Assembly: GCF_900113185.1 (NCBI RefSeq)
Contig: NZ_FOZD01000001.1
Span: 496,001 to 560,000, forward strand
From: Agromyces sp. CF514
GTDB taxonomy: Bacteria > Actinomycetota > Actinomycetes > Actinomycetales > Microbacteriaceae
Direction: 5' to 3'
DNA: 64,000 nucleotides
Within the stretch, counting starts at the first letter, position 1. Every line of letters starts with the position of its first letter. Below the pieces are notes generated by a model. It was not told where the DNA came from and did no database searches. It worked only from the letters and a program-made list of their open reading frames with translations. Below, piece after piece: positions 20-64,000 of this stretch. Position numbers and translations under genes: made by a program.

Positions 20-610
20 TCAGGCGGATGCCGCGGCGAGCTCGCCCTCGGCGCGAACCCCGGCTGCGGCCAGCACCCCGAGGAACGCCTTCATCCAGGT
101 GCCGTTGTCGGGCCACGCACGCGAGGTGACGAGGTTGCCGTCGACCACGCCGCCGCCGTTCTCGAACGCGGCCCCGACCACCTCGAGGTCGATCGCGAGC
201 TCGGGGTAGATCGAGGAGGTGCGGCCGGCGAGCACGCCGGCAGCCGCGAGCAGCAGCGGGCCGTGGCAGGTGGCCGCGACCGGGGCATCCGCCTCGAAGA
301 AGTGGCGCACGATGCGCTTCGCGTCCTCGTTGTTGCGCAGGTACTCGGGCGCACGGCCGCCCGGGATCACGATGGCGGCGTAGTCGGCCGGATCGACGTC
401 GGCGAGCGCGACATCCGCGGGCCAGGTGTGGCCGAGCTTCTCGGTGTAGGTGTCGAAGCCGTCGACGAAGTCGTGCACGACGAACTGGAGCTTGCGCGCC
501 TCGGGTGCGCCGATGTGCACCTCGAAGCCCTCCTCCTTGAGGCGCTCGTAGGGGTAGAGCACCTCGAGCGTCTCGGCCGCGTCGCCGGTGATGATGAGGA
601 TCTTGGTCAT
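20..610 (-). CDS. DJ-1/PfpI (ThiJ) family protein
   Basis: A 196-residue single-domain cytoplasmic protein of the DJ-1/PfpI superfamily, whose members include glyoxalase/deglycase-type enzymes, chaperones and amidases. The nucleophile elbow is visible as ATCHGP with Cys115 followed by His116, and the glycine-rich IVIPGG strand-turn lies at about 80-85. Length is usual for the family. The ATG is preceded by GGAGG about 7 nt upstream, which supports this start. The gene is divergent from the IclR-family regulator at 791, with 180 bp between them, so the regulator may control it, but nothing in the sequence proves this. The exact substrate cannot be told from the sequence. No truncation is seen; the stop codon lies 20 bp from the window edge. 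Confidence 0.9.
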   Translation of the reverse strand: MTKILIITGDAAETLEVLYPYERLKEEGFEVHIGAPEARKLQFVVHDFVDGFDTYTEKLGHTWPADVALADVDPADYAAIVIPGGRAPEYLRNNEDAKRIVRHFFEADAPVAATCHGPLLLAAAGVLAGRTSSIYPELAIDLEVVGAAFENGGGVVDGNLVTSRAWPDNGTWMKAFLGVLAAAGVRAEGELAAASA

Positions 611-777
611 GAGGGGACCTCCATTGGTCTGGATCGGCCGGTCTGCTCCGACCGGACGGGTCGACTCTGCGCCCGCGTGCGGCCCGCGTCACGCCGCGTT
701 CGCACTATGTGCGAAAACGCCCCGGATCGGTGCGGGCGGGCGGCGGACGAGCCTGTCGGTCGCGCCGCCGCCCGGCG

Positions 778-790
778 TACCATCGGGGAC
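778..790 (+). promoter_or_regulatory. leaderless -10 box TACCAT for the IclR gene
   Basis: TACCAT (778-783) fits the actinobacterial TANNNT -10 consensus and lies exactly 7 nt before the ATG at 791, so transcription would begin at or next to the start codon. No Shine-Dalgarno sequence precedes this ATG. Confidence 0.6.
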
Positions 791-1567
791 ATGAGCGCAG
801 AGGAGCGCCACGGCGGCGCGGGCATCCAGTCGGCCGAGCGCGTGCTGCGCATCCTCGAGCTCGTCGGCGCGGCGCCGACCGGGCTCACGGCCGCCGAGAT
901 CGCAAGCTCGCTCGGGCTCGGCCAGTCGACCACCTACCGCCTGCTCGCCACCCTGCACCGGCAGGACTACCTGGCCCGGCAGGCGGGCGAGCACCGCTAC
1001 ATCCTCGGCCGCACGGTCGACCAGCTCGGCCGGGCGCTCCAGTACCAGCTCGTCGCCACCGACCCCGTGCGGCAGGTGCTGCGCGCGATGCACGACGCCG
1101 TCGGGGCGCCCGCGTACCTCACGGTCTTCCGCGGTGACGACATCGCGGTGGCCCACATCGAGGATTCCGCCGCGCACCCGCGCATCGGCCAGTTGCACGT
1201 CGGCTTCTCGGAGGCCTCGCACACGACCGCGTTCGGCAAGCTCATGCTCGCGTCGCGCGACGACGCCGCGGTCGCCCGCTTCCTCGAGCGGCACGCGCCC
1301 GCTCGCCTCACGGCATCGAGCATCACGGATGCCGCGGCGCTGAACGACCAGCTCGACGAGATCCGCGCCCAGCAGGTCGCCGTCGAGATCGAGGAGTACC
1401 TGCCGAAGCTCGCGTGCATCGCCGCACCCGTGCGCTCGGCCGCCGGCCGCACGGTCGGAGCCGTCTCGGTCTCGGTGCAGGCGAAGGACTTCGCCGCCCG
1501 GTCGACCCAGCTCGAGCGCGCGGTGCGCCGCGGCGCGTGGCAGGTCTCGGCGCGGCTCGCGGGCTGA
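791..1567 (+). CDS. IclR family transcriptional regulator
   Basis: A 258-residue DNA-binding regulator. The N-terminal winged helix-turn-helix spans about residues 10-70 (AERVLRILE, then TAAEIASSLGLGQSTTYRLL), and the C-terminal effector-binding IclR domain (GAF-like) covers about 85-255, including HTTAFGKLMLA, typical of the family. Although the frame stays open far upstream, the ATG at 791 is chosen because the HTH begins right after it and a TACCAT -10 box lies 7 nt before it (leaderless mRNA). It is divergent from the DJ-1/PfpI gene and 131 bp upstream of the aldo/keto reductase gene, both possible targets. IclR proteins bind small aromatic, acidic or sugar-derived effectors; the ligand here is unknown. 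Confidence 0.9.
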   Translation: MSAEERHGGAGIQSAERVLRILELVGAAPTGLTAAEIASSLGLGQSTTYRLLATLHRQDYLARQAGEHRYILGRTVDQLGRALQYQLVATDPVRQVLRAMHDAVGAPAYLTVFRGDDIAVAHIEDSAAHPRIGQLHVGFSEASHTTAFGKLMLASRDDAAVARFLERHAPARLTASSITDAAALNDQLDEIRAQQVAVEIEEYLPKLACIAAPVRSAAGRTVGAVSVSVQAKDFAARSTQLERAVRRGAWQVSARLAG

Positions 1568-1698
1568 GCGGGCGCGTCACACGGGGCAACGGGGGAATAC
1601 CGGCATCCGCTGGTCGTTGGGGTCACTGTCGGTCGTGGGCGCTCGCGCCATCGAGGCCGGCGAGACGTCCACCGTTCCGACCCCTGCGAGGAGCCAGC

Positions 1699-2670
1699 AT
1701 GACCGAATCCGTCCAGACCGCCGACCGCGTGCGCATCGGCGCATCCGACCTCGAGATCACGCCGCTGTCGCTCGGCACCAACGTGTTCGGCTGGACCGCC
1801 GACCGCGACGCGACGTTCGCCGTGCTCGACGCGTTCACCGCGGGCGGCGGCGACTTCCTCGATACTGCCGACGGCTACTCGGCCTGGGTGCCGGGCAACA
1901 CGGGCGGCGACAGCGAGCGCCTGATCGGCGAGTGGGTCGCCTCGCGCGGTCCGCGCGACGACGTCGTGATCGCGACGAAGGTGAGCACCCACCCCGACTT
2001 CACGGGCCTCTCGGCTGCGAACATCCGGGCGGCGGCGGATGCTTCGCTCCAGCGCCTCGGCACCGACGTCATCGACCTCTACTACGCGCACTTCGACGAC
2101 GCCGAGGTTCCGCTCGACGAGACGATCGGCGCCCTCTCGGAGCTCGTTGACGCCGGGAAGATCCGGGCGATCGGCATCTCGAACTACTCGCCGGAGCGCA
2201 TCGACGAGTGGTTCCGGGTGACCGAGGCGAACGGTCTGCACCGCGCGGTCGCCCTCCAGCCGCACTACAACCTCGTCGAGCGCGACTTCGAGACGAACGG
2301 GCTGCGCGAGCGCGCCGAGCGCGAGGGGCTCGCGGTCTTCCCGTACTTCTCGCTCGCGAAGGGCTTCCTCGCCGGCAAGTACCGCACCGAGGCGGATGTC
2401 ACCGCCGCCGGCGCGAGCGTCCGTGCCGGCGGCGCGGCACCGTACGTGGGCGAACGCGGCGACCGCGTGCTCGCGGTGCTCGACGAGGTCGCGGCCGCCC
2501 ACGCGGCATCCGTCGCCTCGGTCTCGCTCGCGTGGCTCAGGCAGCAGCCGACCGTCGTCGCCCCGATCGCGAGCGCGCGCAGCGTCGAACAGCTGGGCGA
2601 CCTGCTCGCCTCGCTCGAGCTGGAGCTGACGGCCGAGGAGCTCGCCGCGCTCGCCGCGGCATCCGCCTGA
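1699..2670 (+). CDS. aldo/keto reductase
   Basis: A 323-residue (alpha/beta)8-barrel NADPH-dependent oxidoreductase. The catalytic tetrad of the family is complete: Asp55 and Tyr60 in DTADGY, Lys94 in IATKV and His131 in YYAHFDD. The GISNYS motif and the C-terminal nucleotide-binding PIASARS stretch (Ser/Arg contacts to the 2'-phosphate of NADP) are present. Length matches the family. The ATG is preceded by GAGGAGC at good distance; the frame is open upstream but no better start is seen. It is most similar in style to the aldehyde/sugar reductases of the YajO/Tas group; the natural substrate cannot be assigned. It stands alone between the IclR gene and the membrane hydrolase gene. Confidence 0.92.
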   Translation: MTESVQTADRVRIGASDLEITPLSLGTNVFGWTADRDATFAVLDAFTAGGGDFLDTADGYSAWVPGNTGGDSERLIGEWVASRGPRDDVVIATKVSTHPDFTGLSAANIRAAADASLQRLGTDVIDLYYAHFDDAEVPLDETIGALSELVDAGKIRAIGISNYSPERIDEWFRVTEANGLHRAVALQPHYNLVERDFETNGLRERAEREGLAVFPYFSLAKGFLAGKYRTEADVTAAGASVRAGGAAPYVGERGDRVLAVLDEVAAAHAASVASVSLAWLRQQPTVVAPIASARSVEQLGDLLASLELELTAEELAALAAASA

Positions 2671-2742
2671 CCCTCGCGCGGCGGCACGGACTCCGGATGC
2701 CCGTGTCGCCGCGGTTCGGCGCGGGCGTCGTGCCATGATGCG

Positions 2743-4419
2743 GTGACGCCGCAGCCCGGGGCGACGTCGAAGGGGGTCGGTGTGCGCGCTCGCTGGTGGA
2801 GGCTCGACCCCGGGGGAGCCCTGATCGGGCTGCTCGCGGCCGCACTCTCGATGACCCCGTCGCTGCTGCCCCGCCCGGCGCTGCTCCAGGGCGTCATCAC
2901 CGCGTTCGCGTTCCTCATCGGCTACGGCATCGGGGCGTTCCTGTGGTGGCTGGTGCGTCGCTTCGTCCGCTGGCGCCCGACGGAGAAGTGGCGCCGCATC
3001 GCCTGGTGGGTGTACCTCGGGGCCGCCGTGGTGCTCGCGATCGTGCTGTCGATCGCCTCGGTCGGATGGCAGAACGAGGTGCGTCGCACCGTCGAGCTCC
3101 CCGAGACCGACGGCTTCGACGGACTGCTCTTCGTCGTCGGATTCGTGCCGGTGGTGCTCATCGGCATCGCCCTCGCCCGTGCCGAACGACGGCTGGGGAT
3201 CCGGCTCTCGGCCCGCCTCGGGCGCGCGTGGGGCGTGACCGCGACCGTGGCAATCATCGTCGCCTCGACCGTTGCGGTCGTCTCCGTCGTGATGTTCGGA
3301 CTCGACCGGCTGTACCTGGCGAACAACGGCCCGGCGGCGCCCTGGGTCACCGAGCCGATGAGCGCCTTCCGCTCGGCCGGCCCCGACTCCGAGGTCGAGT
3401 GGGACCTGGTCGGCCGCCATGGCACCGCCTTCCTCGGCGGCGGTCCGAAGGCCGTGGACATCGAGGAGCTCACGGGGCGACCCGCGCTCGAACCGATTCG
3501 CGTCTACGTCGGCCAGGCGAACGCCCCGACCGTCGAGGAACGCGCCGAGATCGCCGTGCGCGAGCTCGAGCGCACCGGCGCGTTCGACCGCGACCTGCTC
3601 GTGGTCGCCACGACGACCGGTTCGGGCTGGCTCGAGCCGCAGGCCGTCGACGCCGTCGAGTACCTGCACGGCGGCGACACGGCGATCGTGTCGACGCAGT
3701 ACGCGTACACGCCGAGCTGGGTGTCGTTCCTCTTCGACCCCGATGCCCCGGTCGCGTCATCCGTCGCCCTGTTCGATGCCGTGCACGCGAAATGGGAGAC
3801 CTTGCCGGAGGACTCCCGACCGCAGCTCGTCGTGTACGGGCTGAGCCTCGGCGCGCACGGAACGCAGGAGGCGTTCGGCGGCCTCGACGAGATGCGCGCC
3901 CGCACCGAGGGGGCGCTCCTGGTCGGCAGCCCGAACGGTTCGACCATGTGGCGCACCCTCACGGCGGCGCGCGAGGAGGGGAGCCCGCAATGGCTCCCGG
4001 TCGTCGACGACGGGCGCGAGGTGCGCTGGCAGTCGGTGCCCGGCGACTTCGAGGCACTCGGCCCGGGATGGGAGGCGCCGCGGGTCGCCTACCTGCAGCA
4101 CGCGACGGACCCGGTCACGTGGCTCGGACTCGAGCTGATCTGGGCCGAGCCCGACTGGCTGACCCCCGAAGAGCGTTCCGACGACGTCAGCGACTCGATG
4201 CGTTGGATCCCGGCCGTGACCGCGCTCCAGGTCGCGATCGACATGTTCGTGAGCGCGGGCGTGCCCGCCAGCTACGGCCACAACTACGGCGACATCATGC
4301 TCGACGGATGGCAGGCGGTCACGGGCGACGGCGGACTGGATGCCGCTGCGCTCGCGCGGGTCCAGAGCGTGCTCGAGGGCTACGCGGAGGTGCAGCCGGT
4401 CGGCAGCGTGAGCGAGTAG
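2743..4419 (+). CDS. membrane-anchored alpha/beta-hydrolase (Abhydrolase_9)
   Basis: A 558-residue integral membrane hydrolase found mainly in actinobacteria. About four or five hydrophobic helices fill residues 20-195 (the Abhydrolase_9 N-terminal domain), followed by an extracytoplasmic or cytoplasmic catalytic domain from about 200 to 540. The nucleophile elbow is GLSLG with Ser368. Members of this family (formerly DUF2319) are uncharacterised; an esterase or lipase role on membrane or envelope lipids is inferred from the fold. The start is a GTG at 2743, directly before the first membrane helix region; no strong Shine-Dalgarno sequence precedes it. It is 72 bp after the aldo/keto reductase gene and could share its transcript. 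Confidence 0.85.
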   Translation: MTPQPGATSKGVGVRARWWRLDPGGALIGLLAAALSMTPSLLPRPALLQGVITAFAFLIGYGIGAFLWWLVRRFVRWRPTEKWRRIAWWVYLGAAVVLAIVLSIASVGWQNEVRRTVELPETDGFDGLLFVVGFVPVVLIGIALARAERRLGIRLSARLGRAWGVTATVAIIVASTVAVVSVVMFGLDRLYLANNGPAAPWVTEPMSAFRSAGPDSEVEWDLVGRHGTAFLGGGPKAVDIEELTGRPALEPIRVYVGQANAPTVEERAEIAVRELERTGAFDRDLLVVATTTGSGWLEPQAVDAVEYLHGGDTAIVSTQYAYTPSWVSFLFDPDAPVASSVALFDAVHAKWETLPEDSRPQLVVYGLSLGAHGTQEAFGGLDEMRARTEGALLVGSPNGSTMWRTLTAAREEGSPQWLPVVDDGREVRWQSVPGDFEALGPGWEAPRVAYLQHATDPVTWLGLELIWAEPDWLTPEERSDDVSDSMRWIPAVTALQVAIDMFVSAGVPASYGHNYGDIMLDGWQAVTGDGGLDAAALARVQSVLEGYAEVQPVGSVSE

Positions 4420-4552: not shown

Positions 4553-6136
4553 GTGCGCATTGTGAAGGGTGCTGCCGTCTCGGCGGCCGTGATCCTGCTC
4601 GTGACGCTCGCAGGCTGCGCGCCCGAACCCGAGCCGTACGCGCCACGCGTCTCGGCCGACGGCCCGCCGCCCGGTGACGCGGTCGAGGTGGCGGAGGGCG
4701 GCCTCGACGGCGCGCTCGAAGCGCTGGAGGGCGACATCCAGGGGATCCTCGACGAATCGGGCGTGCCCGGCGCAGCCGTCGCGGTCGTGCACGGCGACGA
4801 GCTGCTCTTCGCCAAGGGGTTCGGCGTTCGCGAGGTCGGTGAGGACGAGCCGGTCGACGAGGAGACGGTGTTCCAGATCGCCTCGATGTCCAAGCCGATC
4901 GCAGCGACCGTGGTGGCCTCGCAGCTGGGCGACGGACTCACGTGGGACACCCCGGCTGCGCAGTACCTGCCCGGGTTCGGGCTCGCCGACCCGTGGGTCA
5001 CCGAGCACGTCACGGTCGGCGACCTCTTCGCGCACCGGTCGGGGCTGCTGATGGCCGCCGGCGACTCGCTCGAGGACATCGGGTACGACCGCGACTACAT
5101 CCTCGAGCACCTCGACCAGGTGCCGCTCGACCCGTTCAGGTCGACGTACAACTACGCCAACTTCGGGCTCACCGCGGGCGCAGAGGCGGTCGCGAACGCC
5201 GTCGGCACCGACTGGGAGACCCTGTCGGAGCAGGCCCTGTACGAGCCGCTCGGCATGGACTCCACGAGCTCGCGCTACGAGGACTTCCTCGCGCAGGACG
5301 ACCGGGCCACGCTGCACGCGCTCGAGGACGGCGAGTTCCAGCCGCTCTACGAGCGGGATGCCGACGCGCAGACCCCGGCCGGCGGGGTCAGCTCGAACGT
5401 GCTCGACCTGGCGAAGTGGATGTCGCTGCTGCTCGACGAGGGCACCTTCGCGGGCGAGGAGATCGTGCCGGCGGCAGAGCTCGTGCCCGCGATGACGCCC
5501 GAGATCGTGTCGGGGCAGGCCGGCGCATCCGACCTCCGCGCGGGGTTCTACGGGTACGGCTTCAACACCGGCACCGACCCGTCGGGGCACACGACCGCGT
5601 CGCACTCCGGCGCGTTCTGCCTCGGTGCGGCGACGAACTTCCAGATCGTGCCGAGCCTCGGCCTCGGCGTCGTCGCGCTGACGAACGGCGGGCCGATCGG
5701 CGTGCCCGAGGCGATCGTCAGCACCTTCCTCGACCGGGTGCAGTTCGGCGAGGTGCACCGCGACTGGCTCGCCGACTACGGGCAGGCGTTCGCCCACTAC
5801 TACGAGCCCGCCGGCGATCTCGCGAACGAGGAGCAGCCGGCGGATGCCACGGCGCCCGGCCCGCTCCAGGAGTACTCGGGCACGTGGTCGAACCCGTACT
5901 ACGGCGATGCCGTGGTGACCGTGGAGGGCGACTCGCTCGTCGCCCGGCTCGGCCCCGACGGCGGCTACGAGTTCGAGCTCGAACCGTGGGACGGCGACGA
6001 GTTCGCGTTCGTGCCGACCGGTGAGAACGCGCCGTGGGGCTCGAAGTCGTCGGCGACGTTCGCGGTCGGCGGCGGTGCCGACACGATGACGCTGCAGTTC
6101 TTCGACACGAACGGCCTCGGCACCTGGACGCGATGA
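4553..6136 (+). CDS. serine hydrolase lipoprotein, beta-lactamase/PBP4 fold
   Basis: A 527-residue exported lipoprotein of the class C beta-lactamase/DD-peptidase family. A lipoprotein signal ends in LAGC with Cys22 as lipidation site. The catalytic domain runs from about 55 to 400: Ser111 and Lys114 in SMSK, the YAN triad in TYNYANFG, and HSG in the SHSGAFCLG segment replacing the KTG box. A C-terminal lipocalin-like beta domain (about 425-527) follows, as in many esterase/peptidase relatives. GGGAGGA 5-6 nt before the GTG sets the start. Family members include D-Ala-D-Ala peptidases, esterases and amidases; the substrate is not predictable. It converges on a second hydrolase of the same fold across a tandem-repeat spacer. 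Confidence 0.9.
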   Translation: MRIVKGAAVSAAVILLVTLAGCAPEPEPYAPRVSADGPPPGDAVEVAEGGLDGALEALEGDIQGILDESGVPGAAVAVVHGDELLFAKGFGVREVGEDEPVDEETVFQIASMSKPIAATVVASQLGDGLTWDTPAAQYLPGFGLADPWVTEHVTVGDLFAHRSGLLMAAGDSLEDIGYDRDYILEHLDQVPLDPFRSTYNYANFGLTAGAEAVANAVGTDWETLSEQALYEPLGMDSTSSRYEDFLAQDDRATLHALEDGEFQPLYERDADAQTPAGGVSSNVLDLAKWMSLLLDEGTFAGEEIVPAAELVPAMTPEIVSGQAGASDLRAGFYGYGFNTGTDPSGHTTASHSGAFCLGAATNFQIVPSLGLGVVALTNGGPIGVPEAIVSTFLDRVQFGEVHRDWLADYGQAFAHYYEPAGDLANEEQPADATAPGPLQEYSGTWSNPYYGDAVVTVEGDSLVARLGPDGGYEFELEPWDGDEFAFVPTGENAPWGSKSSATFAVGGGADTMTLQFFDTNGLGTWTR

Positions 6137-6213: not shown

Positions 6214-7188
6214 CTACGCGGCCGAGGCCACCGCGTTGTGCAGCAGGTCGCCGTCGACGCCCGGCGCGTCGGCCCGGTTGGTGAGCAGCACGAAGCACAC
6301 CCCGAGCGACGGGGTCACCCAGAACTGGGTGCCCGCCCATCCGCCGTGCCCGTAGGTGTCGCGCGTGAGCAGTGCGGGCGCCGCGTTGCGCAGGTTCCAC
6401 GTGACGCCCCAGTCCTGGCCGCGCGACGCGGGATAGGGATCGAGTCTCGGAAGTCCCGCGGTGAGCGGTCGCAGCATGGCCTCGAGGCCGATGGGCGAGA
6501 GCAGCGATCCGTCGTCGCGCAGCAGCGCGCTGCCGACCGCGAGCAGGTCGCGGGCGCGGCCGAACAGCCCGGCACCCGGGTGGCGCATCGAGGCGAAGCG
6601 TTCGAAGTCGAGGCCGTTCTCGGCGGCGTCGATCGGCGCATGCGGGCTGTCGGCGTCGAACGTGAAGCCGTTCGCCCCCACGCGCTCGCCGACGGCGAGG
6701 ACCCGTCGCTCCCACGGCTCGCCGCTCGCGTGCTCGATGAGCGCGGCGACGCCCGAGTAGGCGATCGTCGAGTACCGGCTCGTGGTGCCTGCGGCGAAGT
6801 CGCGGCCCGGGGCGAGCAGCCCGGCACGCAACCCTTCGACTGCATCCATCGCCGGCTCGACGATTCCCGAGGTGTGGCTCACGAGGTGCCGCAGGCGCAC
6901 GACGTCGTCGCGGCCGGCCCCGAACTCGGGCACCGCCGCGGTCAGCGGCGTCTCGAGCGTCAGCCGGCCCTGCTCGATGAGGTGCATCGCGGCCAGTCCG
7001 ACGATCGGCTTCGTGATCGAGAACAGCGGGTAGCGGTCGTCGACGGATGCCTCGTGCGACCCGGTCGCACCGAACGCGTCGAGTGCGACGACGCCGTCGG
7101 CGCTCGCGACGCCGAGCACCGCGGTCGGCAGGCGTCCGGACTCGACGTGGTCACGTGCCCAGTCGAAGGCGTGGTCGAAGTGCGGCAT
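6214..7188 (-). CDS. serine hydrolase, beta-lactamase fold (cytoplasmic)
   Basis: A 324-residue protein of the class C beta-lactamase/esterase family without signal peptide. Ser57 and Lys60 form the SITK box; the second motif is an altered YST in SRYSTIAYSG instead of YxN; and HGG in YGHGGWAGTQFW stands for the KTG box. The lack of an export signal and the HGG motif fit the EstB/LpqH-like esterase side of the family more than a cell-wall peptidase; this is inference. GAGAGGA precedes the ATG. It lies 33 bp downstream of the hydroxyacid dehydrogenase gene on the same strand, probably one operon, and converges with the lipoprotein hydrolase. Confidence 0.88.
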   Translation of the reverse strand: MPHFDHAFDWARDHVESGRLPTAVLGVASADGVVALDAFGATGSHEASVDDRYPLFSITKPIVGLAAMHLIEQGRLTLETPLTAAVPEFGAGRDDVVRLRHLVSHTSGIVEPAMDAVEGLRAGLLAPGRDFAAGTTSRYSTIAYSGVAALIEHASGEPWERRVLAVGERVGANGFTFDADSPHAPIDAAENGLDFERFASMRHPGAGLFGRARDLLAVGSALLRDDGSLLSPIGLEAMLRPLTAGLPRLDPYPASRGQDWGVTWNLRNAAPALLTRDTYGHGGWAGTQFWVTPSLGVCFVLLTNRADAPGVDGDLLHNAVASAA

Positions 7189-8145: not shown

Positions 8146-8236
8146 GCGTCGATCCTCTCAGGGGCGAGGTGCCGGTCGGCAGCGCGGCGCGGCATCCGCT
8201 CGACCCGGCTCGGCGCGGTCGAGGCCGCGGCCCGGG

Positions 8237-46017: not shown

Positions 46018-47486
<1,469 letters not shown>

Positions 47487-55096: not shown

Positions 55097-55136
55097 TCGG
55101 ACCGATCCGCTGATCCGGATGCCGCGCCACGCGCAG

Positions 55137-55187: not shown

Positions 55188-56813
55188 TCAGCCGAGCGCC
55201 GAGTCGACGACCCGCTTGGCCTCCTCCTGCACCTGCGCGAGGTGCTCGGCGCCGAGGAACGACTCGGCGTAGATCTTGTAGACGTCTTCGGTGCCGCTCG
55301 GGCGTGCCGCGAACCAGGCGTCGGCCGTCTCGACCTTGACGCCGCCGATCGCGGCGTCGTTGCCCGGCGCGTGCGAGAGCTTCGCGGTGATCGGTTGCCC
55401 CGCGAGTTCGGTCGCTGCGATGGCGTCGCCGGTGAGCTTGCCGAGCGCGGCCTTCTGCGCGGGCGTGGCCGCGGCGTCCTTGCGCTCGTAGGCCGGATCG
55501 CCGAAGCGCTCGACCAGCTCGGCATACAGCGCCGACGGCGACTTGCCGGTGACCGCGCGGATCTCGGAGGCGAGTAGGCAGAGCAGGATGCCGTCCTTGT
55601 CGGTGGTCCAGACCGTGCCGTCGAATCGCAGGAACGAGGCGCCCGCGCTCTCTTCGCCGCCGAAGCCGACCGAGCCGTCGACGAGGCCGGGCACGAACCA
55701 CTTGAACCCGACCGGCACCTCCCACAGCCTGCGCTCGAGGGCCGCCGCGACCCGGTCGATCATCGAGCTCGACACGAGCGTCTTGCCGATCGCGGCATCC
55801 GCCCGCCATTGGGGCCGGTGCGCGAAGAGGTACTCGATCGCGACCGCGAGGTAGTGGTTGGGGTTCATCAGTCCGCCGTCTGGCGTGACGATGCCGTGTC
55901 GGTCGGCGTCGGCGTCGTTGCCCGTGAGGATGTCGAAGGCGCTGCCGTGCTCGAGCACCGAGGCCATGGCGCTCGGCGACGACGGGTCCATGCGGATCTT
56001 GCCGTCCCAGTCGAGCGTCATGAACGACCAGGTCGGGTCGACGCGTTCGTTCACGACCGTGAGGTCGAGCCCGTACGTGTCGCGGATCGCGGCCCAGTAG
56101 TTGACCGAGGCCCCGCCGAGCGGGTCGGCGCCGATCCGGATGCCGCTGCGCTTGATCGCGTCGATGTCGATGATGTTCGCGAGGTCTGCGACGTAGGCGG
56201 TGCGGAAGTCGTAGGTCTCGACGGCGCTCGGCTCGGCCTGCTTGACGTCGCGCAGCCCGTCGGCGATGAGCTCGTTGGCGCGATTCGCGATCCAGCTCGT
56301 GGCGTCGGAATCGGCGGGGCCGCCGTGCGGCGGGTTGTACTTGAAGCCGCCGTCCTGCGGCGGGTTGTGGCTCGGCGTGATGACGATGCCGTCGGCTTCG
56401 CCCTCTGCCCGCTTGGCCGGGTCGTTGTTCCACGTGAGGATCGCGTGCGAGAGCGCGGGCGTCGGCACGTAGTCGTCGTACTGGTCGACGAGCACGCGCA
56501 CGCCGTTCGCGACGAGCACGTCGAGCGCCGTGGTCTGGGCGGGGGCGCTGAGCGCGTGCGTGTCGGAGCCGATGAACAGGGGTCCCGTGATGCCCTGCGT
56601 GGCGCGGTACTCGACGATCGCCTGCGTGATCGCGAGGATGTGGTGCTCGTTGAAGCCCGTGTTGAACGACGAGCCCCGGTGGCCCGAGGTGCCGAACGCG
56701 ACGCGCTGCTCGGGCACCGAGACATCCGGTGTCAGCTCGTAATACGCCCTGATGAGGGCTTCGACGTCGATGAGGTCGGACTCGGTGGCCGGGGTTCCCG
56801 CGCGTGCGTGCAT
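55188..56813 (-). CDS. pgm: phosphoglucomutase (alpha-D-glucose phosphate-specific)
   Basis: A 541-residue enzyme that interconverts glucose 1-phosphate and glucose 6-phosphate, linking glycogen and cell-wall sugar synthesis to glycolysis. All four domain motifs are present: the phosphoserine loop TPSHNPP with Ser148, the magnesium loop [10 protein letters not shown], the sugar loop [10 protein letters not shown] and the phosphate-binding ARPSGTED. Length is typical for the Pgm (PNG) subgroup. The ATG at 56813 has CAGACT 6 nt upstream, a near-consensus leaderless promoter. The DUF445 gene lies upstream on the same strand, 63 bp away. Confidence 0.96.
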
Positions 56814-56876: not shown

Positions 56877-58163
56877 TCAGACGAGCGCGTGCAGGGCCGT
56901 CGCGACCGAGTAGATCGCGAGGCCGGCGAGCGCGCCCACGACGGTGCCGTTGATGCGGATGAACTGCAGGTCGCGCCCGACCTGGATCTCGAGCTTGCGG
57001 GTGGTCTCGGCCGGGTCCCACCGCTCGACCGTCTCGGTGATGACGCCCGCGATCTCGTGCCGGTACGTGCGCACGACGTAGGCCGCGGCATCCGTCACCC
57101 AGGTGTCGACCTTCGCCGCGAGCGCCTCGTCGGCCACGAGCCGGGATCCCACCTCGGCGATCGCCGAGGCGAGGCTCTGCCGCAGCTCGCTCGAGGGGTC
57201 GGCGAGCGATTCGTCGAGCGCGGCCTTCACGGCGGTCCAGGCCTCGCCGGCGAACTCCCGCACGCGGGGGCTCTCGAGCAGGTCCAGCTTGATGCCCTCG
57301 ACGCGTGCGATCGTCGCGGGGTCGTGCTGCAGCGCATCGGCGAGGTCGGCGAGGTAGCGGTCGATCGCCTCGCGGAGCGGATGCCGCGGGTCGGCGCGCA
57401 CGGCACGCACGAACCCGAGCACCTCGCGAGCCGCGCGGTCGTCGACGAGCCGGTCGACGAACCCGGGCATCCAGCGGGGCAGGCGGTCGGAGACCATGCT
57501 GCCGAACGCCTCGGGATGGGCGACGAGCCAGTCCTCGGCCTTGACGAGCAGGGCGTCGACCGCGGCCCGCTGCTGGTCCGCCGCCACGAGCCGCGCCCCG
57601 ACCCGGCCGATCGAGGGCGACCACTCGGGCTCGAAGAGGTGCTTGCGGGCGAGCCGTTCGATCACGTCGGCGACGTCGTCGTCGCCGAGCAGTTCGAGCA
57701 CGCCGCGTGCGGCGACGGTGGCCTCGGCGGTGAGCCGTTCGGCGTTCGCCGGCATCGCGAGCCACCCGCCCAGGCGGCGCGAGATGCCGATCGAGCGGAG
57801 CTTGCCGAGCACGACGTCGTCCGAGAGGAACTCGTCCTCCACGAAGGCTCCGAGCGTCGCGCCGATCTCGTCCTTGCGCGTCGGGATGATCGCGGTGTGG
57901 GGGATCGGCAGCCCGAGCGGCCGGCGGAACAGCGCCGTCACCGCGAACCAGTCGGCGATCGCGCCGACCATCGCGCCCTCGGCGGCGGCGCGTACGTAGC
58001 CCATCCAGGGGATCTCGTCCTGCAGTGCGAACGCGACGGCGAACACGATCGCGGCGACGACGAGCAGCGAGGTCGCGAGCCGCTTCATGCGCCGCAGCGC
58101 AGCCAGCCGTTCGGCCTCGGTCGGAACGGGCGGCCGGGTGGGGCGTTCGACGGTCGTGGTCAT
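56877..58163 (-). CDS. DUF445 family membrane-associated protein
   Basis: A 428-residue protein of the DUF445 (YjiN) family. After a basic N-terminus there is a helix at about 30-46, then the family landmark GAMVGAIADWFAVTALFRRPLGLPIPHTAIIP; a second hydrophobic segment closes the protein (GTVVGALAGLAIYSVATALHAL). The middle is helical and charged. Function is unknown. GAGGAGAT precedes the ATG. It may be co-transcribed with pgm, and is divergent from pheA. Confidence 0.9.
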   Translation of the reverse strand: MTTTVERPTRPPVPTEAERLAALRRMKRLATSLLVVAAIVFAVAFALQDEIPWMGYVRAAAEGAMVGAIADWFAVTALFRRPLGLPIPHTAIIPTRKDEIGATLGAFVEDEFLSDDVVLGKLRSIGISRRLGGWLAMPANAERLTAEATVAARGVLELLGDDDVADVIERLARKHLFEPEWSPSIGRVGARLVAADQQRAAVDALLVKAEDWLVAHPEAFGSMVSDRLPRWMPGFVDRLVDDRAAREVLGFVRAVRADPRHPLREAIDRYLADLADALQHDPATIARVEGIKLDLLESPRVREFAGEAWTAVKAALDESLADPSSELRQSLASAIAEVGSRLVADEALAAKVDTWVTDAAAYVVRTYRHEIAGVITETVERWDPAETTRKLEIQVGRDLQFIRINGTVVGALAGLAIYSVATALHALV

Positions 58164-58242: not shown

Positions 58243-59199
58243 ATGACGGATGCCGCACCTGCACGCCCGGAGGACACCTACTCCTACCTGGGGCCGGCGG
58301 GCACGTTCACCGAGGCCGCACTGAAGCAGGTGCCCGAGGCGGCAGGCAAGACGTGGCGCTCGGTCAACAACGTGGGCGAAGCACTGGCGGATGTCACGAG
58401 CGGCCGCTCGATCGCCGCCGTCATCGCGATCGAGAACTCGATCGAGGGCGGGGTCTCGGCCACGCAGGACGCGCTCGCGACGGTGCCGGGCCTGCGCATC
58501 GTCGGCGAGTACCTGGTGCCCGTGAACTTCGTGCTCGTCGCACGCCACGGCACGACGCTCGACGACGTGCGCACCGTCAACGCGCACCCGGTCGCCTACG
58601 CCCAGTCGCGCGGATGGCTCGAACGGCACCTGCCAGAGCACGGCCACATCCCCGCCTCGAGCAACGTGCAGTCCGCGGCATCCCTCTTCGACGCCGACAA
58701 CACGGCCGACGCCGCGGTCGCCCCGCCCGGCATCACCGACCACCACGACGTGACCGTGCTCGCCCGCGACATCGGCGACAACCCGAACGCGGTGACGCGG
58801 TTCGTGCTGGTCTCGCGGTCGCGCGTGCTGCCCGAGCCCACGGGCGCCGACAAGACGAGCCTCATCGTCGAACTGCCGAGCGACGAACCCGGCGCGCTGC
58901 TCGCGATGCTCGAGCAGTTCTCGACGCGAGGCGTGAACCTCTCGCTGCTCGAGTCCCGCCCCATCGGCGACGCCCTCGGGCGCTACCGCTTCGTGGTCGA
59001 CCTCGATGGGCATGTGGCCGACGAGCGCGTCGCCGACGCCCTGCTCGGCCTCCGGCGCACGAGCCCGAACGTGATCTTCCTCGGCTCGTATCCCCGCGCC
59101 GACCAGCGCGAGATCGAGTACCACGCGAAGTACGATGACGAGATCTTCATCGAGGCGCGCGACTGGCTGCGCGGCCTGCTGAGCGGCGAGCCCGACTGA
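58243..59199 (+). CDS. pheA: prephenate dehydratase
   Basis: A 318-residue monofunctional enzyme converting prephenate to phenylpyruvate in phenylalanine synthesis. The catalytic domain starts YSYLGPAGTFTEAAL, contains VIAIENSIEGGVSATQDAL, and has the essential Thr-Arg-Phe in NAVTRFVLVSR; a C-terminal ACT domain (about 205-285, GALLAMLEQFSTRGVNLSLLESRP) provides feedback control by phenylalanine. There is no chorismate mutase domain, as usual in actinobacteria. It has a leaderless promoter and is followed 51 bp later by a membrane protein gene. Confidence 0.95.
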   Translation: MTDAAPARPEDTYSYLGPAGTFTEAALKQVPEAAGKTWRSVNNVGEALADVTSGRSIAAVIAIENSIEGGVSATQDALATVPGLRIVGEYLVPVNFVLVARHGTTLDDVRTVNAHPVAYAQSRGWLERHLPEHGHIPASSNVQSAASLFDADNTADAAVAPPGITDHHDVTVLARDIGDNPNAVTRFVLVSRSRVLPEPTGADKTSLIVELPSDEPGALLAMLEQFSTRGVNLSLLESRPIGDALGRYRFVVDLDGHVADERVADALLGLRRTSPNVIFLGSYPRADQREIEYHAKYDDEIFIEARDWLRGLLSGEPD

Positions 59200-59250: not shown

Positions 59251-59985
59251 ATGAGCGACGAGGCTGCGCGGGGCATCGACCCGAGGTTCGATCCCAGATT
59301 CCAACGCGGGTATGTTCCGGATGTCGCGGCGGACCGCCGCGCGTCCACGCGTCGTGAGCCGACGGCCCCGCCCAGCACGGTGGAGACCGAGCTGTACGGG
59401 CCCCGCCAGGTCGGCGCCGTTGCCGAGCGACCTGCGTCGCACCGCGAGGAGGCTGCCGTCCTCGAGGCCGACCGGGCCACCGAGCCCGACCATGCCGCTG
59501 CCCTGCTGGCGTACTTCGCTCCGGAGGCGCAGGCGGAGGCGGGCCACGCCCCCCGTCCCGTGCCCGACGACGAGGCGATGTTCGCGCCACGTTCCGACGC
59601 GCGCTCCGCACCGCAGCAAGCCCGCATCGGCCCTCCACCGAGCGCCATCGGCGAGCATGCCGATCCCGGCATGCATTCCGAGCGTGGTGACGCCCGCTTC
59701 GTCGTCGAACCCGAGCCCGAAAGCGAGTCGCCGTTCGTGCGGCATCCGTCACTGCGGTACTGGGTTGCGCTCGTCGCGAGCATCGGGTTCGTGCTGACGG
59801 GTGCGGTTCTCTACTGGAATATCAACCTCATGCAGATGAGCGGGATGATGACGTTGTCGAGCGAGGAGCAGGCGCTGCAGAGCGCGGTCTACTCGTTGAG
59901 CAGCGGGTTCATGCAGGCAGGGGTCGTCGGCGTCGTCCTCGTCGTCGGACTTTGGGCCGTGCAGACGGGACGCGGGCGATCGTGA
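59251..59985 (+). CDS. two-helix membrane protein of unknown function
   Basis: A 244-residue protein. Residues 1-165 are hydrophilic and low in complexity (many Ala, Glu, Pro, Arg); two helices follow at about 168-192 and 218-239 with a short outer loop ([17 protein letters not shown]). No family is recognised. The ATG has GAAGG upstream. Its stop overlaps the GTG of the next membrane protein gene by 4 bp, so the two small proteins are probably made together and may form a complex. Confidence 0.75.
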
Positions 59986-60434: not shown

Positions 60435-61303
60435 ACGATCTCGCGGCGACGGCTGCCGCCGGTGAGGTCCATGATCTGCCGGCCGATGGCGGACTTGCGC
60501 AGCACCGGGTTCTCCCATGTGACCTTGCGCCAGATGAAGAGCCACTCGAGGAAGTTGCGCGGCTGCAGCACGGCCATGTCGAGGCGTCCGTCGTCGAGCT
60601 GGGCGTCGGGGATCAGCTCGATGTTGCCCGGCAGGTAGCCGAGGTTCGCCACGAGGATGGTCGAGACCTTCGACCGGTGCAAGCGGCCGGCATCCGTGCG
60701 GTAGTAGGCCCGATACGGCTTCGAGGCGGGCAGCGCGCGGAGCCCGGCGTCGACGTAGGCGAGCCAGCCCACACGCTTCTTCAGGTCGGGGTTCGTGCTC
60801 GAGATCATGGTGGCGTCGATGCCGATGCCGGCCATGACCAGCGACGTGTGGGTCTCGGTGTCGCCGTTCGGGCGGGTGATGTCGGCGACGACCACGTCGA
60901 CCGCGCGGTCGAGGCCGGAGAATGCGAGCACGACGGCGTCGCGCATGTCGTTGACGGGGATGTCGACGTTCCGGGCGAACAGGTTGCCGGTGCCGATCGG
61001 CACGATGCCCATGGGCAGGCCGCTGTCGCGGAGCCCGGCGGCGACCGAGCGAACCGTGCCGTCGCCGCCCGCTGCGATGACGAGGTCGACCTTCGACTCG
61101 CGCGCCTCGTGGGCCATGCCCTTGCCCGGGTCGTCGACCGTCGTCTCGATCCACAGGGGCTCGGCGAAGCCCTGGAGCGCGGCGACCTCGGTGATCGCCT
61201 TGCGCAGGTTCTCGACGCCCTGCTTGCTCGGGTTGAAGATCACCGCGACGCGCGGCTGATCGCCTGCGGTCTCCGCCGCCTGCTGCTTGCCGCCCCGCAC
61301 CAC
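60287..61303 (-). CDS. diacylglycerol kinase family lipid kinase
   Basis: A 338-residue protein with the DAGK catalytic domain: [11 protein letters not shown] at the start of the fold, the nucleotide loop [15 protein letters not shown], and [14 protein letters not shown]. The C-terminal beta domain contains [28 protein letters not shown]. Members phosphorylate diacylglycerol or related lipids at the membrane, or act on other alcohols (DgkB, YegS, BmrU). The GTG at 61303 is chosen because TATGTT lies 6 nt before it; the ATG at 61321 is an alternative. It is divergent from serS and overlaps a convergent membrane protein gene by 148 bp. Confidence 0.88.
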
Positions 61304-61315: not shown

Positions 61316-61335
61316 TTCCATTCGGATGCCGCGGC

Positions 61336-62617: not shown

Positions 62618-63510
62618 GCGAGCGGATGCCGCGGGCCGACCTCCGGGCACCGGATCACGCCGACGCGCCCATCCGCCCGACTGAAGACCCGTGGTTCGTC
62701 GCGCTCGACGTCGACGGCACGATCATGCACGAAGACGAGACCATCGATCCCGCGGTGGCTTCGGCCGTGGCATCCGCCCGGGATCGCGGGCACGACGTCA
62801 CGATCGCGACCGGCCGCTCGTGGGCCGGCACGTCGACCGTGCTCGACGCGCTCGGCCTCCGCCCCGAGTACGTGGTCTGCGCGAACGGCGCCGTGACGAT
62901 GAAGCTCGACGACGCGGCGTCCGACAAGGCGGCGTCCGACAGGGCTGCGTCCGACAGGTACGTGCGATCGCACGTCGAGACGTTCGACCCGACGAAGGCG
63001 CTCGAGCGCATCCGGTCGTTCCTGCCGGAGGGGCGGTTCATGGTCGAGCTGCCCGACGGCGAGCGGCTCTACACGGCGGGAATGGACACCTGGAATCTCG
63101 ACTCGGCCCGCCAGGTCGAGTTCGAGGGCCTGTTCGTGCCGAGTGCGACGCGAGTTGTCGTGGTCTCGCCCGAACACGAGACGCAGGAGTTCATGGACCT
63201 CGTCGCGGGCATGGGCCTGCACCAGGTCAGCTACGCGATCGGCTGGACCGCCTGGCTCGACATCGCGCCCGACGGCGTCAGCAAGGCGACCGCGCTCGAG
63301 CGCGTGCGCGGCTGGCAGGGGCACGAGCTGAACCGCGTCATCGCCGTCGGCGACGGCCGCAACGACATCGAGATGTTCACCTGGGCCGGCGCCGCCGGTC
63401 GCGCGGTCGCCATGGGCCAGTCGCCCGACGAGGTCAAGGCGGCCGCGACCGAGGTCACCGGCGGCATCGACGAGGCCGGGCTCGCCGAGGTGCTCGACAC
63501 GCTGCCCTAG
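62614..63510 (+). CDS. HAD family (Cof-type) phosphatase
   Basis: A 298-residue haloacid-dehalogenase-like hydrolase of the Cof/IIB type. Motif I is ALDVDGT (Asp32 nucleophile, Asp34), motif II is IATGRSW and motif III-IV is [14 protein letters not shown]. The cap domain carries a low-complexity insert [16 protein letters not shown] encoded by a 15-bp tandem repeat. The ATG overlaps the serS stop (ATGA). The protein begins MSERMPRA before the conserved domain. The substrate is unknown, probably a sugar phosphate or a flavin/nucleotide phosphate. It shares a transcript with serS. Confidence 0.92.
62914..62958 (+). repeat. 15-bp in-frame tandem repeat, three units
   Basis: GCGGCGTCCGACAAG (62914), GCGGCGTCCGACAGG (62929) and GCTGCGTCCGACAGG (62944) encode [15 protein letters not shown] in the HAD cap domain. 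Confidence 0.88.
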
Positions 63511-63550
63511 CAGGCGTCCCGCCTCCCGTGCCGGGCCCGGCCCACCCGGT

Positions 63551-63556
63551 TACACT
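63551..63556 (+). promoter_or_regulatory. -10 box TACACT of the LytR-CpsA-Psr gene
   Basis: TACACT lies 30 bp before the GTG at 63581, which also has GGGGGGAG about 7 nt upstream; this is a conventional leader. Just before it, GCCGGGCCCGGC (63530-63541) is a perfect palindrome that may end the serS-HAD transcript. Confidence 0.5.
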
Positions 63557-63580
63557 CGGCATTCTGGGGGGAGTGCCGTC

Positions 63581-64000
63581 GTGAGCGATGATCGCGGAGG
63601 GAAGTCCGGACCGGCCGACGAGGTCGAGCCCGAGTCCATGGCGCCTGCCGACGGGGTGCCGGCGCCCGGACCGACGGCACCGGAACCGCCGCGTCACGGG
63701 CGCATGCCCCGCCGCAACGGCTGGATCTCCGCAGCGAAGCTCGCGGCATCCGTCGTCGCCGTCGTCGCGATCAGCGGCATCGCGGTCGCCGCATTCGCCG
63801 CCGTCGACCTCGTCACCACCGCCGTGTCCGCGCCGACGCTGACCCTCGCGAACGAGGAGATCCTCGAAGGCGTGCCCGACATCGGCGCCATGGACGGCGG
63901 CCTGAACTTCCTGCTCGTGGGCAGTGACAAGCGTCCGGCCGACGGCGCCTTCGGCGACCCCGAAGAGGAGTCCGCGGTCCTCAACGACGTCACGATGCTC
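63581..64000 (+). CDS. LytR-CpsA-Psr (LCP) family protein, N-terminal part
   Basis: The first 140 codons of a gene cut by the window end. A hydrophilic, Pro-rich cytoplasmic leader (about 45 residues) is followed by one membrane helix (about 53-78) and then GLNFLLVGSDKRP, the start of the LCP domain, with LNDVTML at the very edge. LCP enzymes transfer undecaprenyl-linked anionic polymers such as teichoic acid or arabinogalactan onto peptidoglycan outside the membrane. The GTG is chosen because GGGGGGAG lies about 7 nt before it. A TACACT promoter precedes it. Confidence 0.85.
   Translation, partial: MSDDRGGKSGPADEVEPESMAPADGVPAPGPTAPEPPRHGRMPRRNGWISAAKLAASVVAVVAISGIAVAAFAAVDLVTTAVSAPTLTLANEEILEGVPDIGAMDGGLNFLLVGSDKRPADGAFGDPEEESAVLNDVTML

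Follow-up and report, generated by a model that had tools for sequence, protein, structure and literature searches.

What maintains a short DNA word at high density, on both strands, in genes and spacers alike? The question arises from a 64-kb stretch of the Agromyces sp. CF514 genome (the window, meaning the whole of the DNA analysed here), in which a sequence-only reading had noticed the heptamer GGATGCC, or GGCATCC, recurring on both strands. The recurrence is real and larger than that reading claimed.

A 12-base word recurs throughout the window

Exact counting gives 44 copies of GGATGCC on the forward strand and 37 on the reverse strand (as GGCATCC), 81 in total; the earlier estimates were about 39 and 34. 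The word also extends further than had been noted: GGATGCC is the core of the non-palindromic 12-mer CGGATGCCGCGG, with consensus CGGATG[C, rarely T]CGCGG and a core of 7-8 bases that reads CGGATGCC as an 8-mer. A preceding C is found in 63 of the 81 window copies, and 21 of the 81 are the full 12-mer. With genes called by a codon model, 15 of the 81 copies are intergenic or partly intergenic, at a density of 3.12/kb vs 1.11/kb in genes, and the seven copies originally placed in spacers (20377, 20412, 31230, 38831, 45984, 55117 and 61324) all fall outside called genes. At 33025-33042, within a gene, two copies of CGGATGCCGCGG overlap head-to-head to form an 18-base palindrome. The copies in the window (coordinates, strand, form, location) are:

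25..36, +, CGGATGCCGCGG, full 12-mer, in gene
284..291, -, CGGATGCC, in gene
821..827, -, GGATGCC, in gene
1326..1337, +, CGGATGCCGCGG, in gene
1601..1609, -, CGGATGCCG, intergenic
2502..2512, -, CGGATGCCGCG, in gene
2654..2665, -, CGGATGCCGCGG, in gene
2694..2701, +, CGGATGCC, intergenic
4338..4346, +, GGATGCCGC, in gene
5356..5363, +, GGATGCCG, in gene
5841..5848, +, CGGATGCC, in gene
7044..7051, +, CGGATGCC, in gene
7428..7437, +, CGGATGCCGC, in gene
7872..7882, +, CGGATGCCGCG, in gene
8188..8198, -, CGGATGCCGCG, intergenic
9507..9517, -, CGGATGCCGCG, in gene
9789..9796, -, GGATGCCG, in gene
10515..10523, +, CGGATGCCG, in gene
13739..13750, +, CGGATGCCGCGG, in gene
13896..13906, -, CGGATGCCGCG, in gene
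16857..16867, +, CGGATGCCGCG, in gene
17809..17819, -, CGGATGCCGCG, in gene
17990..18000, +, CGGATGCCGCG, in gene
18023..18034, +, CGGATGCCGCGG, in gene
19328..19338, +, GGATGCCGCGG, in gene
19805..19812, +, GGATGCCG, in gene
20090..20097, -, GGATGCCG, in gene
20376..20384, +, CGGATGCCG, intergenic
20376..20406, unstranded, inverted pair of word and variant CGGATGTC, potential stem-loop, intergenic
20411..20419, +, CGGATGCCG, intergenic
21890..21897, +, CGGATGCC, in gene
22055..22062, +, GGATGCCG, in gene
22992..22999, +, GGATGCCG, in gene
23343..23350, +, GGATGCCG, in gene
23730..23737, -, CGGATGCC, in gene
26538..26549, -, CGGATGCCGCGG, in gene
27662..27669, -, CGGATGCC, intergenic
28610..28617, -, CGGATGCC, in gene
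28922..28929, -, GGATGCCG, in gene
29205..29216, +, CGGATGCCGCGG, intergenic
29349..29360, -, CGGATGCCGCGG, in gene
29646..29657, -, CGGATGCCGCGG, in gene
29976..29983, +, GGATGCCG, in gene
30782..30792, +, CGGATGCCGCG, in gene
31229..31240, +, CGGATGCCGCGG, intergenic
32480..32487, +, CGGATGCC, in gene
33025..33036, +, CGGATGCCGCGG, in gene, first half of the palindrome 33025-33042
33031..33042, -, CGGATGCCGCGG, in gene, overlapping the 33025..33036 copy head-to-head
34615..34622, -, CGGATGCC, in gene
35260..35270, -, GGATGCCGCGG, in gene
36042..36051, -, CGGATGCCGC, in gene
36259..36270, +, CGGATGCCGCGG, in gene
37503..37510, +, CGGATGCC, in gene
38830..38840, +, CGGATGCCGCG, intergenic
39233..39241, -, CGGATGCCG, in gene
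40670..40677, +, CGGATGCC, in gene
41508..41515, -, CGGATGCC, intergenic
42610..42616, -, GGATGCC, in gene
44693..44703, +, CGGATGCCGCG, in gene
45983..45992, +, CGGATGCCGC, intergenic
46344..46355, -, CGGATGCCGCGG, in gene
48451..48462, +, CGGATGCCGCGG, in gene
51284..51293, -, CGGATGCCGC, in gene
52071..52082, +, CGGATGCCGCGG, intergenic
52789..52796, +, CGGATGCC, in gene
53084..53091, -, GGATGCCG, in gene
53257..53268, -, CGGATGCCGCGG, in gene
55116..55126, +, CGGATGCCGCG, intergenic
55586..55593, +, GGATGCCG, in gene
55791..55801, -, CGGATGCCGCG, in gene
56137..56146, +, CGGATGCCGC, in gene
57083..57094, -, CGGATGCCGCGG, in gene
57378..57389, +, CGGATGCCGCGG, in gene
57466..57472, -, GGATGCC, in gene
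58247..58256, +, CGGATGCCGC, in gene
58673..58683, -, GGATGCCGCGG, in gene
59739..59748, -, CGGATGCCGC, in gene
60688..60696, -, CGGATGCCG, intergenic
61323..61334, +, CGGATGCCGCGG, intergenic
62623..62634, +, CGGATGCCGCGG, in gene
62769..62776, -, CGGATGCC, in gene
63742..63752, -, CGGATGCCGCG, in gene

Against these 81 copies, Markov models of orders 1, 2, 3, 4 and 5 predict 12.9, 14.3, 19.4, 40.3 and 62.2 on both strands. At order 5 the excess persists (z 4.4), but this is a weak test because the model already holds the word's 6-mers. The 21 one-base neighbours of GGATGCC occur 1-66 times in the window and none reaches 81; CGATGCC comes closest with 66, and the other GGATGNN neighbours have only 4-21 copies.

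Enrichment is genome-wide and acts at synonymous positions

Across the 4.3 Mb genome, CGGATGCCGCGG occurs 628 and 619 times on the two strands (1,247), vs 0 and 7 for the reversed word, and its parts are the commonest 9-14-mers across 344 kb. Codon shuffling of 307 genes (344 kb), a check proposed with the original observation, yields 124.6 +/- 6.0 copies of GGATGCC where 349 are observed, and 2.8 +/- 1.6 copies of the 12-mer where 68 are observed. The suggestion that the word forces rarer codons is likewise borne out: GAT makes up 12% of Asp codons overall, yet 190/211 of those within CG[GAY]GCC. In five codon contexts, covering both strands, the base that spells the word is chosen in 190/211, 198/257, 41/48, 19/27 and 19/36 cases (0.53-0.90), vs genome-wide usage of the same five bases of 0.12, 0.07, 0.11, 0.08 and 0.22. 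Since uncommon codons are favoured in all five contexts on both strands, the word acts on DNA and not on translation.

Overrepresentation of the 11-mer falls steeply rather than gradually with mismatch, from 66x for exact copies to 3.7x, 1.1x and 1.0x at one, two and three mismatches, while two control words stay at 0.5-1.5x in every class. Exact and one-off copies number 368 and 463, a ratio of 1:1.26; for a word of different length, ratios of 1:1.15 and 1:1.45 are given for two Neisseria genomes (PMC3630211). Little or no information lies beyond positions -2 to +10 of the word, the spacing between copies is near random (CV 1.08), and density climbs with GC. The word is thus massively and specifically enriched, and near saturation at synonymous positions, independently of strand and reading frame.

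Orientation, spacers and turnover of sites

The word has no replichore polarity: its strands are balanced in its own genome, and in a complete congener (G336) orientation does not switch along the chromosome (first 100 of 112 sites, p 0.96). These two results leave KOPS and leading-strand-biased Chi unsupported, and the argument from near-equal strand use against a replication-direction word stands. In the Agromyces sp. CF514 genome, GGATGCC reaches 2.4/kb in intergenic vs 1.1/kb in coding DNA. It also contains 25 intergenic inverted pairs of the word that could form terminator-like hairpins. Of these, 23 lie in spacers flanked by tandem or convergent genes, a class of spacer that holds 71% of intergenic bases.

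Individual sites turn over between species, and at several in-gene sites the protein is kept while synonymous codons change. Under stricter alignment a gap occurs in 8/144 comparisons, the remainder being substitutions or identical; under looser alignment an indel touches 36/227 coding-site comparisons (50/250 with spacers), vs 1,940/28,704 for control words in genes. One resident 12-kb prophage shows no excess of the word, with 2 copies vs 2.03 expected from its own composition; it is only a modest control, because word density rises with GC and its GC is 0.59.

The word among relatives, and the competence genes

Comparison with relatives, also suggested at the outset, shows enrichment in 36/36 other Agromyces genomes sampled and none in 23 genomes from other families (0-10 copies per strand). 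The word is a property of the genus Agromyces and of many Microbacteriaceae genera, and many genomes of the family are without it. Its spelling differs between species and between genera, with variants seen in congeners, and one genus (g56) has the replacement word CGGATCCG, with palindromic GGATCC.

The Agromyces sp. CF514 genome carries adjacent comEA and comEC genes and three Tad/Flp-type loci, and transformation of Micrococcus luteus requires tad genes (PMC4322843). ComEC is present in 293 of 299 genomes of the family, many of which lack the word, and competence genes therefore do not predict it.

Discussion

Genomic uptake sequences are described for the naturally competent Pasteurellaceae and Neisseriaceae (PMC7811141). 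We find in Agromyces sp. CF514 a comparable set of features: a non-palindromic word of ~9-12 bases in at least ~1000 copies, no orientation bias, intergenic excess and inverted pairs in its own genome, graded near-matches, no excess in foreign DNA (one prophage stretch), and competence machinery, whose presence is non-discriminating. We therefore lean, by a narrow preference, towards reading the word as a DNA uptake sequence in an actinobacterium capable of natural competence, recognised by a Tad/Flp-ComEA-ComEC system. On free DNA the word would be bound by ComEA or by a Tad/Flp pilus protein at the cell surface, and word-bearing fragments would pass through ComEC before joining the chromosome by recombination. 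Word-bearing alleles would then be imported more often, driving near-matches at permissive positions to the word. For the broader proposal the balance is even: Microbacteriaceae may have their own self-DNA recognition for natural transformation, a near-saturated 12-base watermark read by Tad/Flp machinery, with species and genus dialects (including the change from CGGATGCC to the palindrome GGATCC) that would act as a recombination barrier between lineages.

Several observations count against uptake. The GGATCC replacement is palindromic, unlike the uptake words of the cited papers. In three other genera that carry the word (G187, G225 and G138) the intergenic excess is weak or missing, and conservation of in-gene sites is lower than that of control words (0.29 vs 0.18 mismatches). 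The word is not depleted from genes whose codon scores are unusual, and the distribution of ComEC does not discriminate.

Among other explanations, maintenance by methylation has a precedent in the HIP words of cyanobacteria, which accompany methyltransferases and in some genomes have given way to different palindromes (PMC4390886). A conserved orphan methyltransferase would modify the word or part of it, methylation-linked repair or selection would uphold it, and another enzyme would serve GGATCC in g56, whose word is palindromic as HIP1 is. Among three methyltransferase families (N6/N4, D12 and C5) in 25 chosen genomes, the N6/N4 family is present in 25/25, with a window copy at 41920-42819, whereas D12 (2/25) and C5 (12/25) enzymes are patchy. 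However, the main word is non-palindromic and 12 bases long, its GGATGNN neighbours are scarce, and the recognition region of the conserved enzyme matches the window copy at identity 0.82-0.99 across 18 genomes with GGATGCC and at 0.83 in the two with GGATCC; the same enzyme occurs at a family MAG locus (L034) with only 3 copies of CGGATGCC in 21 kb. Since the recognition region is alike whatever the word, the enzyme does not appear to change target along with the word, and we consider this explanation unlikely. We judge similarly the idea of binding sites for a nucleoid protein or one that organises the chromosome, or of some different role inside the cell under cell-level selection: the word does span the whole chromosome on both strands in many genera of the family, but ~1.2 core copies/kb, filling 0.53-0.90 of possible synonymous places, would require thousands of individual sites each to be under weak selection. 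Individual sites also turn over between species, and their spacing is near random.

Chi and KOPS are short, abundant chromosome words whose orientation follows replication, Chi words being 5-8 bases long. A Chi-like guide word, read by AdnAB/RecBCD-type nucleases and selected for protecting broken DNA, would account for an abundant, chromosome-wide word at synonymous sites with no excess in a prophage, but not for its 12-base length, its intergenic hairpin pairs or its lack of polarity, and is improbable. A mobile repeat family (REP/MITE-like) with the word as conserved core is very improbable: the hairpin-capable pairs and the indel frequency under looser alignment are in its favour, but conservation scarcely extends outside the 12 bases, gaps are few in the stricter comparisons, and several in-gene sites change by synonymous codons with the protein kept. 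It is hardly credible that the word simply falls out of base composition, codon usage, pairing of amino acids or a single mutational bias. The word is GC-rich and denser at high GC, and the order-5 model yields 62 of the window's 81 copies; yet codon shuffles fall ~25-fold short for the 12-mer, different base changes in different frames converge on the same word, the 11-mer has 333 copies vs 115 expected for all its one-step neighbours summed, and GAT fills only 12/57 of the same contexts at 30 loci from other actinobacterial families. Neither codon bias nor a mobile repeat fits the data, nor does the polarity expected of KOPS. Of the three kinds of function that the sequence-only reading had offered, uptake fits best, KOPS and a leading-strand-biased Chi are unsupported, and, for methylation, the conserved one of the three methyltransferase families searched does not seem to vary with the word.

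If the word is indeed an uptake sequence, such a system exists beyond the two Gram-negative families in which uptake words are known, and a third, high-GC actinobacterial lineage with near saturation, dialects and Tad-type pili would represent an independent origin, allowing a direct test of molecular-drive theory. This would point to natural transformation as a main route by which genes are exchanged within Microbacteriaceae, a large family for which our literature searches found no report of uptake or transformation. Should the word serve otherwise, it is still a near-saturated word across many genera of one family.

Comparison with known systems

The word resembles the DUS of Neisseriaceae, words of 10-12 bases in thousands of copies, with hairpin-forming inverted pairs in spacers, dyads that overlap in one of the species, a similar ratio of exact to one-off copies, and species-level dialects, one with an inserted base (PMC3630211). 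The Agromyces word differs in sequence, in its high-GC actinobacterial host, in its pilus genes, which here are of the Tad/Flp and not the type IVa kind, and in the palindromic spelling of one related lineage. The DUS receptor in Neisseria is ComP (PMC3868556), whereas in Agromyces the putative receptor would be a Tad/Flp surface protein or ComEA. The USS of Pasteurellaceae is similarly spread genome-wide through genes and spacers, with no orientation bias and a non-coding excess, and its gradual gain through point mutation has been proposed (PMC1939737); it differs in sequence and in its extended AT-rich flank, which the Agromyces word lacks, and uptake of the latter is our proposal. Chi and KOPS track replication in their orientation, and the Agromyces word does not. 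HIP1 of cyanobacteria is likewise a very abundant GC-rich word that some lineages have swapped for others, but it is palindromic and has specificity-matched methyltransferases (PMC4390886), while the main Agromyces word is non-palindromic and does not seem to be tracked by the conserved methyltransferase.

Results

GGATGCC occurs 44 times in the window and its other-strand form GGCATCC 37 times, 81 copies in all by exact count, so that the recurrence on both strands first put at about 39 and 34 copies by the sequence-only reading stands with slightly higher numbers. Markov models of orders 1-3 predict 13-19 copies on the two strands together, far under 81; the prediction rises to 40 at order 4 and to 62 at order 5, against which the proposed excess is weaker. 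C precedes the word in 63 of the 81 copies, the full 12-mer CGGATGCCGCGG is present in 21, and clear information around GGATGCC is confined to positions -2 to about +10. Searches of the window for Rfam families and for tRNA genes gave no match. In a 344-kb set made up of the window and 14 stretches, the top 9-, 10-, 11-, 12-, 13- and 14-mers all are, or overlap with, the word, and the whole genome (4.30 Mb) holds 628 and 619 copies of CGGATGCCGCGG per strand, against 0 and 7 for the reversed control, the same letters read backwards.

The word acts on DNA rather than on protein. When synonymous codons were shuffled 50 times within each of the 307 genes called by a simple codon model in the 344 kb, GGATGCC fell from 349 observed to 124.6, CGGATGCCGC from 146 to 10.7 and the 12-mer from 68 to 2.8; an equal count after codon shuffling, which would have told against the sequence-only reading, was not seen. 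We also held all other letters of CGGATGCC fixed and scored the synonymous letter (own genome, about 790 kb). Five of the eleven positions printed call for an uncommon codon, among them the GAT and GCA that had been thought to be forced in genes.

Uncommon codons favoured in word contexts
Asp: GAT 190/211; genome usage 0.12
Ala: GCA 198/257; genome usage 0.07
His: CAT 41/48; genome usage 0.11
Gly: GGA 19/27; genome usage 0.08
Arg: CGG 19/36; genome usage 0.22

Four of the remaining six positions are raised too (for example TCC, 198/207 vs 0.25), the last two being common codons and uninformative. These positions span different frames, both strands and different base changes, so codon preference does not account for them, nor does any one mutational bias. 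GAT is frequent in the word context of other word-bearing genera (46/58 in G187, 40/43 in G138, 14/20 in G225), in contrast to G353 of genus g56 (1/21) and G280 of genus g72 (6/23), and makes up 12 of 57 cases of the same Asp context in other actinobacterial families (30 loci, 613 kb). For Asp contexts represented by 60 or more cases, GAT is high only in CG[GAY]GCC (178/198) and CG[GAY]GTC (66/78), the next best reaching 23/65.

The 33 one-step neighbours of the 11-mer, pooled, are expected 115 times and observed 423 times, and since the word itself occurs 333 times, a single kind of precursor is hardly its source; a single C-to-T mutation bias was rejected because the 11-mer with C replacing T is expected only 7.7 times. 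Overrepresentation falls from 66-fold to 3.7-, 1.1- and 1.0-fold with zero, one, two and three mismatches, and reversed and permuted control words lie at 0.5-1.5-fold. On the synonymous shuffles, neighbour counts, codon contexts and other-family loci, a codon or composition effect was rejected.

Over 730 kb of the genome, density of the 12-mer is 0.225 per kb within genes and 0.766 per kb in the spacers, where its copies lie nearer to stop codons than to start codons; TGA ahead of the word served as stop codon in none of 46 cases. Of 25 intergenic head-to-head pairs (CGGATGCC and CGGATGTC within 70 bases), 19 lie between tandem genes, 4 between convergent and 2 between divergent ones (divergent spacers are 29% of intergenic bases). 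Many are clean predicted stem-loops; 14 pairs are opposite-facing. The gap of an overlapping dyad, CGGATGCCGCGGCATCCG, occurs at 13 places in the 730 kb, and the window holds one overlapping dyad:

33025-33042, overlapping dyad of the word

Near an overlapping word pair lies an ATP-grasp gene (window 31378-33075) with a poly-glutamine tail that varies in length and sequence among Agromyces species.

Spacing is near random (mean 763, CV 1.08). Over the first 100 of 112 sites in G336, a complete one-contig congener, orientation does not switch (statistic 16, null mean 23.6, p 0.96), which upholds the earlier argument from strand symmetry against a replication-direction word. Some other findings are a poorer fit. 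Density climbs with GC, its range being 0.19 to 1.59 per kb; the word is not depleted in genes whose codon scores are atypical, the best-adapted genes show the lowest density, and four further stretches of 5.3-5.7 kb and ordinary GC are without GGATGCC. The foreign-DNA control is a single stretch:

L132 8001-20000 (G000:C1:2218001-2230000), prophage-like stretch, GC about 0.59, no word enrichment

Its assignment is based on matches to RusA, a RecE-type exonuclease, a phage DNA methyltransferase and replication proteins. Its 12 kb contain 2 copies of GGATGCC against 2.03 expected from its own composition, a modest control given that density rises with GC and the prophage is GC-poor. A small contig (L122; G000:C4, 5697 bases) has a GC of 0.56 in a 71% GC genome and one GGATGCC, and is possibly phage, plasmid or contaminant. 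An exact 14-base form of the word was found in at least 120 viral stretches; among the 80 matches listed, each has a single match and none is enriched.

At several of 24 window sites aligned with at most five congeners, GCG GAT GCC stands here for GCC GAC GCC there with the protein unchanged; other sites, mostly in spacers or protein tails, lie within variable stretches. Stricter alignments with five congeners gave 144 site comparisons (a site common to both genomes being counted from either side), 76 unchanged, 8 gapped and 60 substituted. In looser alignments with 20 congeners, in-gene sites are less conserved than control words (0.29 vs 0.18 mismatches), and indels affect 36/227 site comparisons vs 1,940/28,704 for control words, a share that is lower with the stricter, longer-match alignments. 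Single sites thus turn over at steady density, for which drive is a better fit than upkeep of fixed sites. A mobile repeat was rejected, since there is little or no information beyond the word's own positions and the stricter alignments are mostly without gaps.

Comparison with relatives extends the pattern, with the word enriched in all 36 other Agromyces genomes sampled (21-652 per strand; reversed control 0-9) and in several genera of the family. Judged by one protein (87%), Agromyces salentinus is the closest named relative of the window. Counts across 299 family genomes run from 0 to 628 per strand, with varied enrichment in g85 (five sampled, 130-201 per strand), g28, g59, g62, g51, g82 and g101 and background levels in genera such as g72. 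Genomes no larger than 1.9 Mb reach 0-3 per strand, G234 (17/10) excepted; within the order but outside the family, 23 genomes show 0-10 per strand, much like their control. Among loci of about 14-22 kb each, CGGATGCC is frequent in Compostimonas (16) and one Herbiconiux (15), scarce in Amnibacterium (2) and Frigoribacterium (1), and present 0-6 times in 11 loci of other families.

The spelling itself varies. Eight Agromyces species with few copies of the 12-mer carry the core at about the usual frequency in the stretch compared; there the base following CGGATGCC is often C or T, and the variants CGGATGCCCCGG (17 copies) and CGGATGCCTCGG (13) rank with the commonest 12-mers in their pooled 158 kb. 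By synonymous shuffle, G353 is not enriched in GGATGCC (34 vs 52) and is enriched in GGATCC (215 vs 44); its top 8-mer is CGGATCCG, and its Asp in CG[GAY]CCC is GAT in 14/16 cases vs 5% overall. GGATCC is under expectation in three GGATGCC genomes and near it in the window's genome (86 vs 76). CGGATCCCGCG is raised in all six g56 genomes sampled (83-124 per strand) and in G221 (40/53), and counts 11/10 in the window's genome. We take GGATCC to be an alternative spelling, exclusive of the first, and infer a common origin of the two. Neither is enriched in G280. A repeated word of a different kind, TCGACAGGCTCA / TGAGCCTGTCGA, has 14 copies in G225 (L253-L259, 140 kb) and 6 in G280 (L273-L279, 140 kb).

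Discussion

On balance we favor a model in which the word would work like the uptake sequence of Neisseriaceae (DUS) or the uptake signal of Pasteurellaceae (USS), as a watermark of the cell's own kind of DNA, a reading that its sequence properties make somewhat probable. Candidate machinery is present. On L123, comEC (Pfam PF03772, over cut-off) adjoins a ComEA-like gene with SLBB and HHH_3 above Pfam cut-offs and a match to NCBIfam comEA of 80 bits, under cut-off. Pilus genes lie at three loci:

L297, Tad/Flp locus: prepilin peptidase, Flp pilin, TadE, TadE/G-like proteins, CpaB-like protein (under cut-offs), ParA/MinD-like ATPase, TadA-type ATPase, two T2SSF proteins
L298 and L299, two more Tad-like loci

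Compared with the fuller L297, the Tad-like locus at L298 8093-10913 is compact and includes a small DUF4244 protein. Transformation of Micrococcus luteus needs tad genes, two clusters of which act jointly (PMC4322843). ComEC occurs in 293 of 299 family genomes, word-free ones included, so its presence fails as a predictor of the word.

The sequence-only reading had offered uptake signals, guide words and methylation targets as options. KOPS and strand-biased Chi do not fit, KOPS being rejected on the absence of an orientation switch over the first 100 of 112 sites in G336; the same goes for codon bias and for mobile repeats. That some intracellular reader of the word accounts for its spread seems to us improbable. 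A methylation-linked word, like the cyanobacterial HIP1, we likewise consider unlikely, and here the window offers a candidate enzyme:

41920-42819, + strand, window METHYLTRANSFERASE: CcrM/RsrI-like N6/N4 DNA methyltransferase

No obvious restriction gene lies alongside it; a lipoate-protein ligase gene is nearby. Its Pfam family has members in all 25 chosen genomes (23 with GGATGCC, 2 with GGATCC), which makes a HIP1-like model worth testing. Among the 25, C5 enzymes occur in 12 and D12 enzymes in 2. For Arthrobacter, Blow et al. report a conserved orphan methyltransferase for TTAA (PMC4752239). A reader should differ where the word differs, but the region between the catalytic motifs, compared in 20 of 24 relatives, shares 0.82-0.99 identity with the window's copy across 18 GGATGCC genomes and 0.83 for each of the two GGATCC genomes, and a relative (67%) lies on L034, a MAG locus of the family that has 3 CGGATGCC over 21 kb. 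In the 20 compared, the recognition region is highly conserved and does not seem to follow the word's spelling, and we think that its target is probably something other than the word.

Among the matches listed, with most subscription journals outside the scope of the search, no account of a word of this kind in Actinobacteria appeared; for the family, the matches listed, judged by title and start of abstract, included no paper on uptake words. Among the papers listed in a separate search, none contains GGATGCC. Term searches of PMC4322843 and PMC8467076 gave no passage on uptake sequences.

Uptake remains, of the options first proposed, the one that fits best, and with a little more than even confidence. 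The intergenic excess of the word is not general in the family, and the palindromic spelling GGATCC in g56 is a feature that fits DUS and USS less well, but most sequence-level features of DUS and USS are found in the window's genome.
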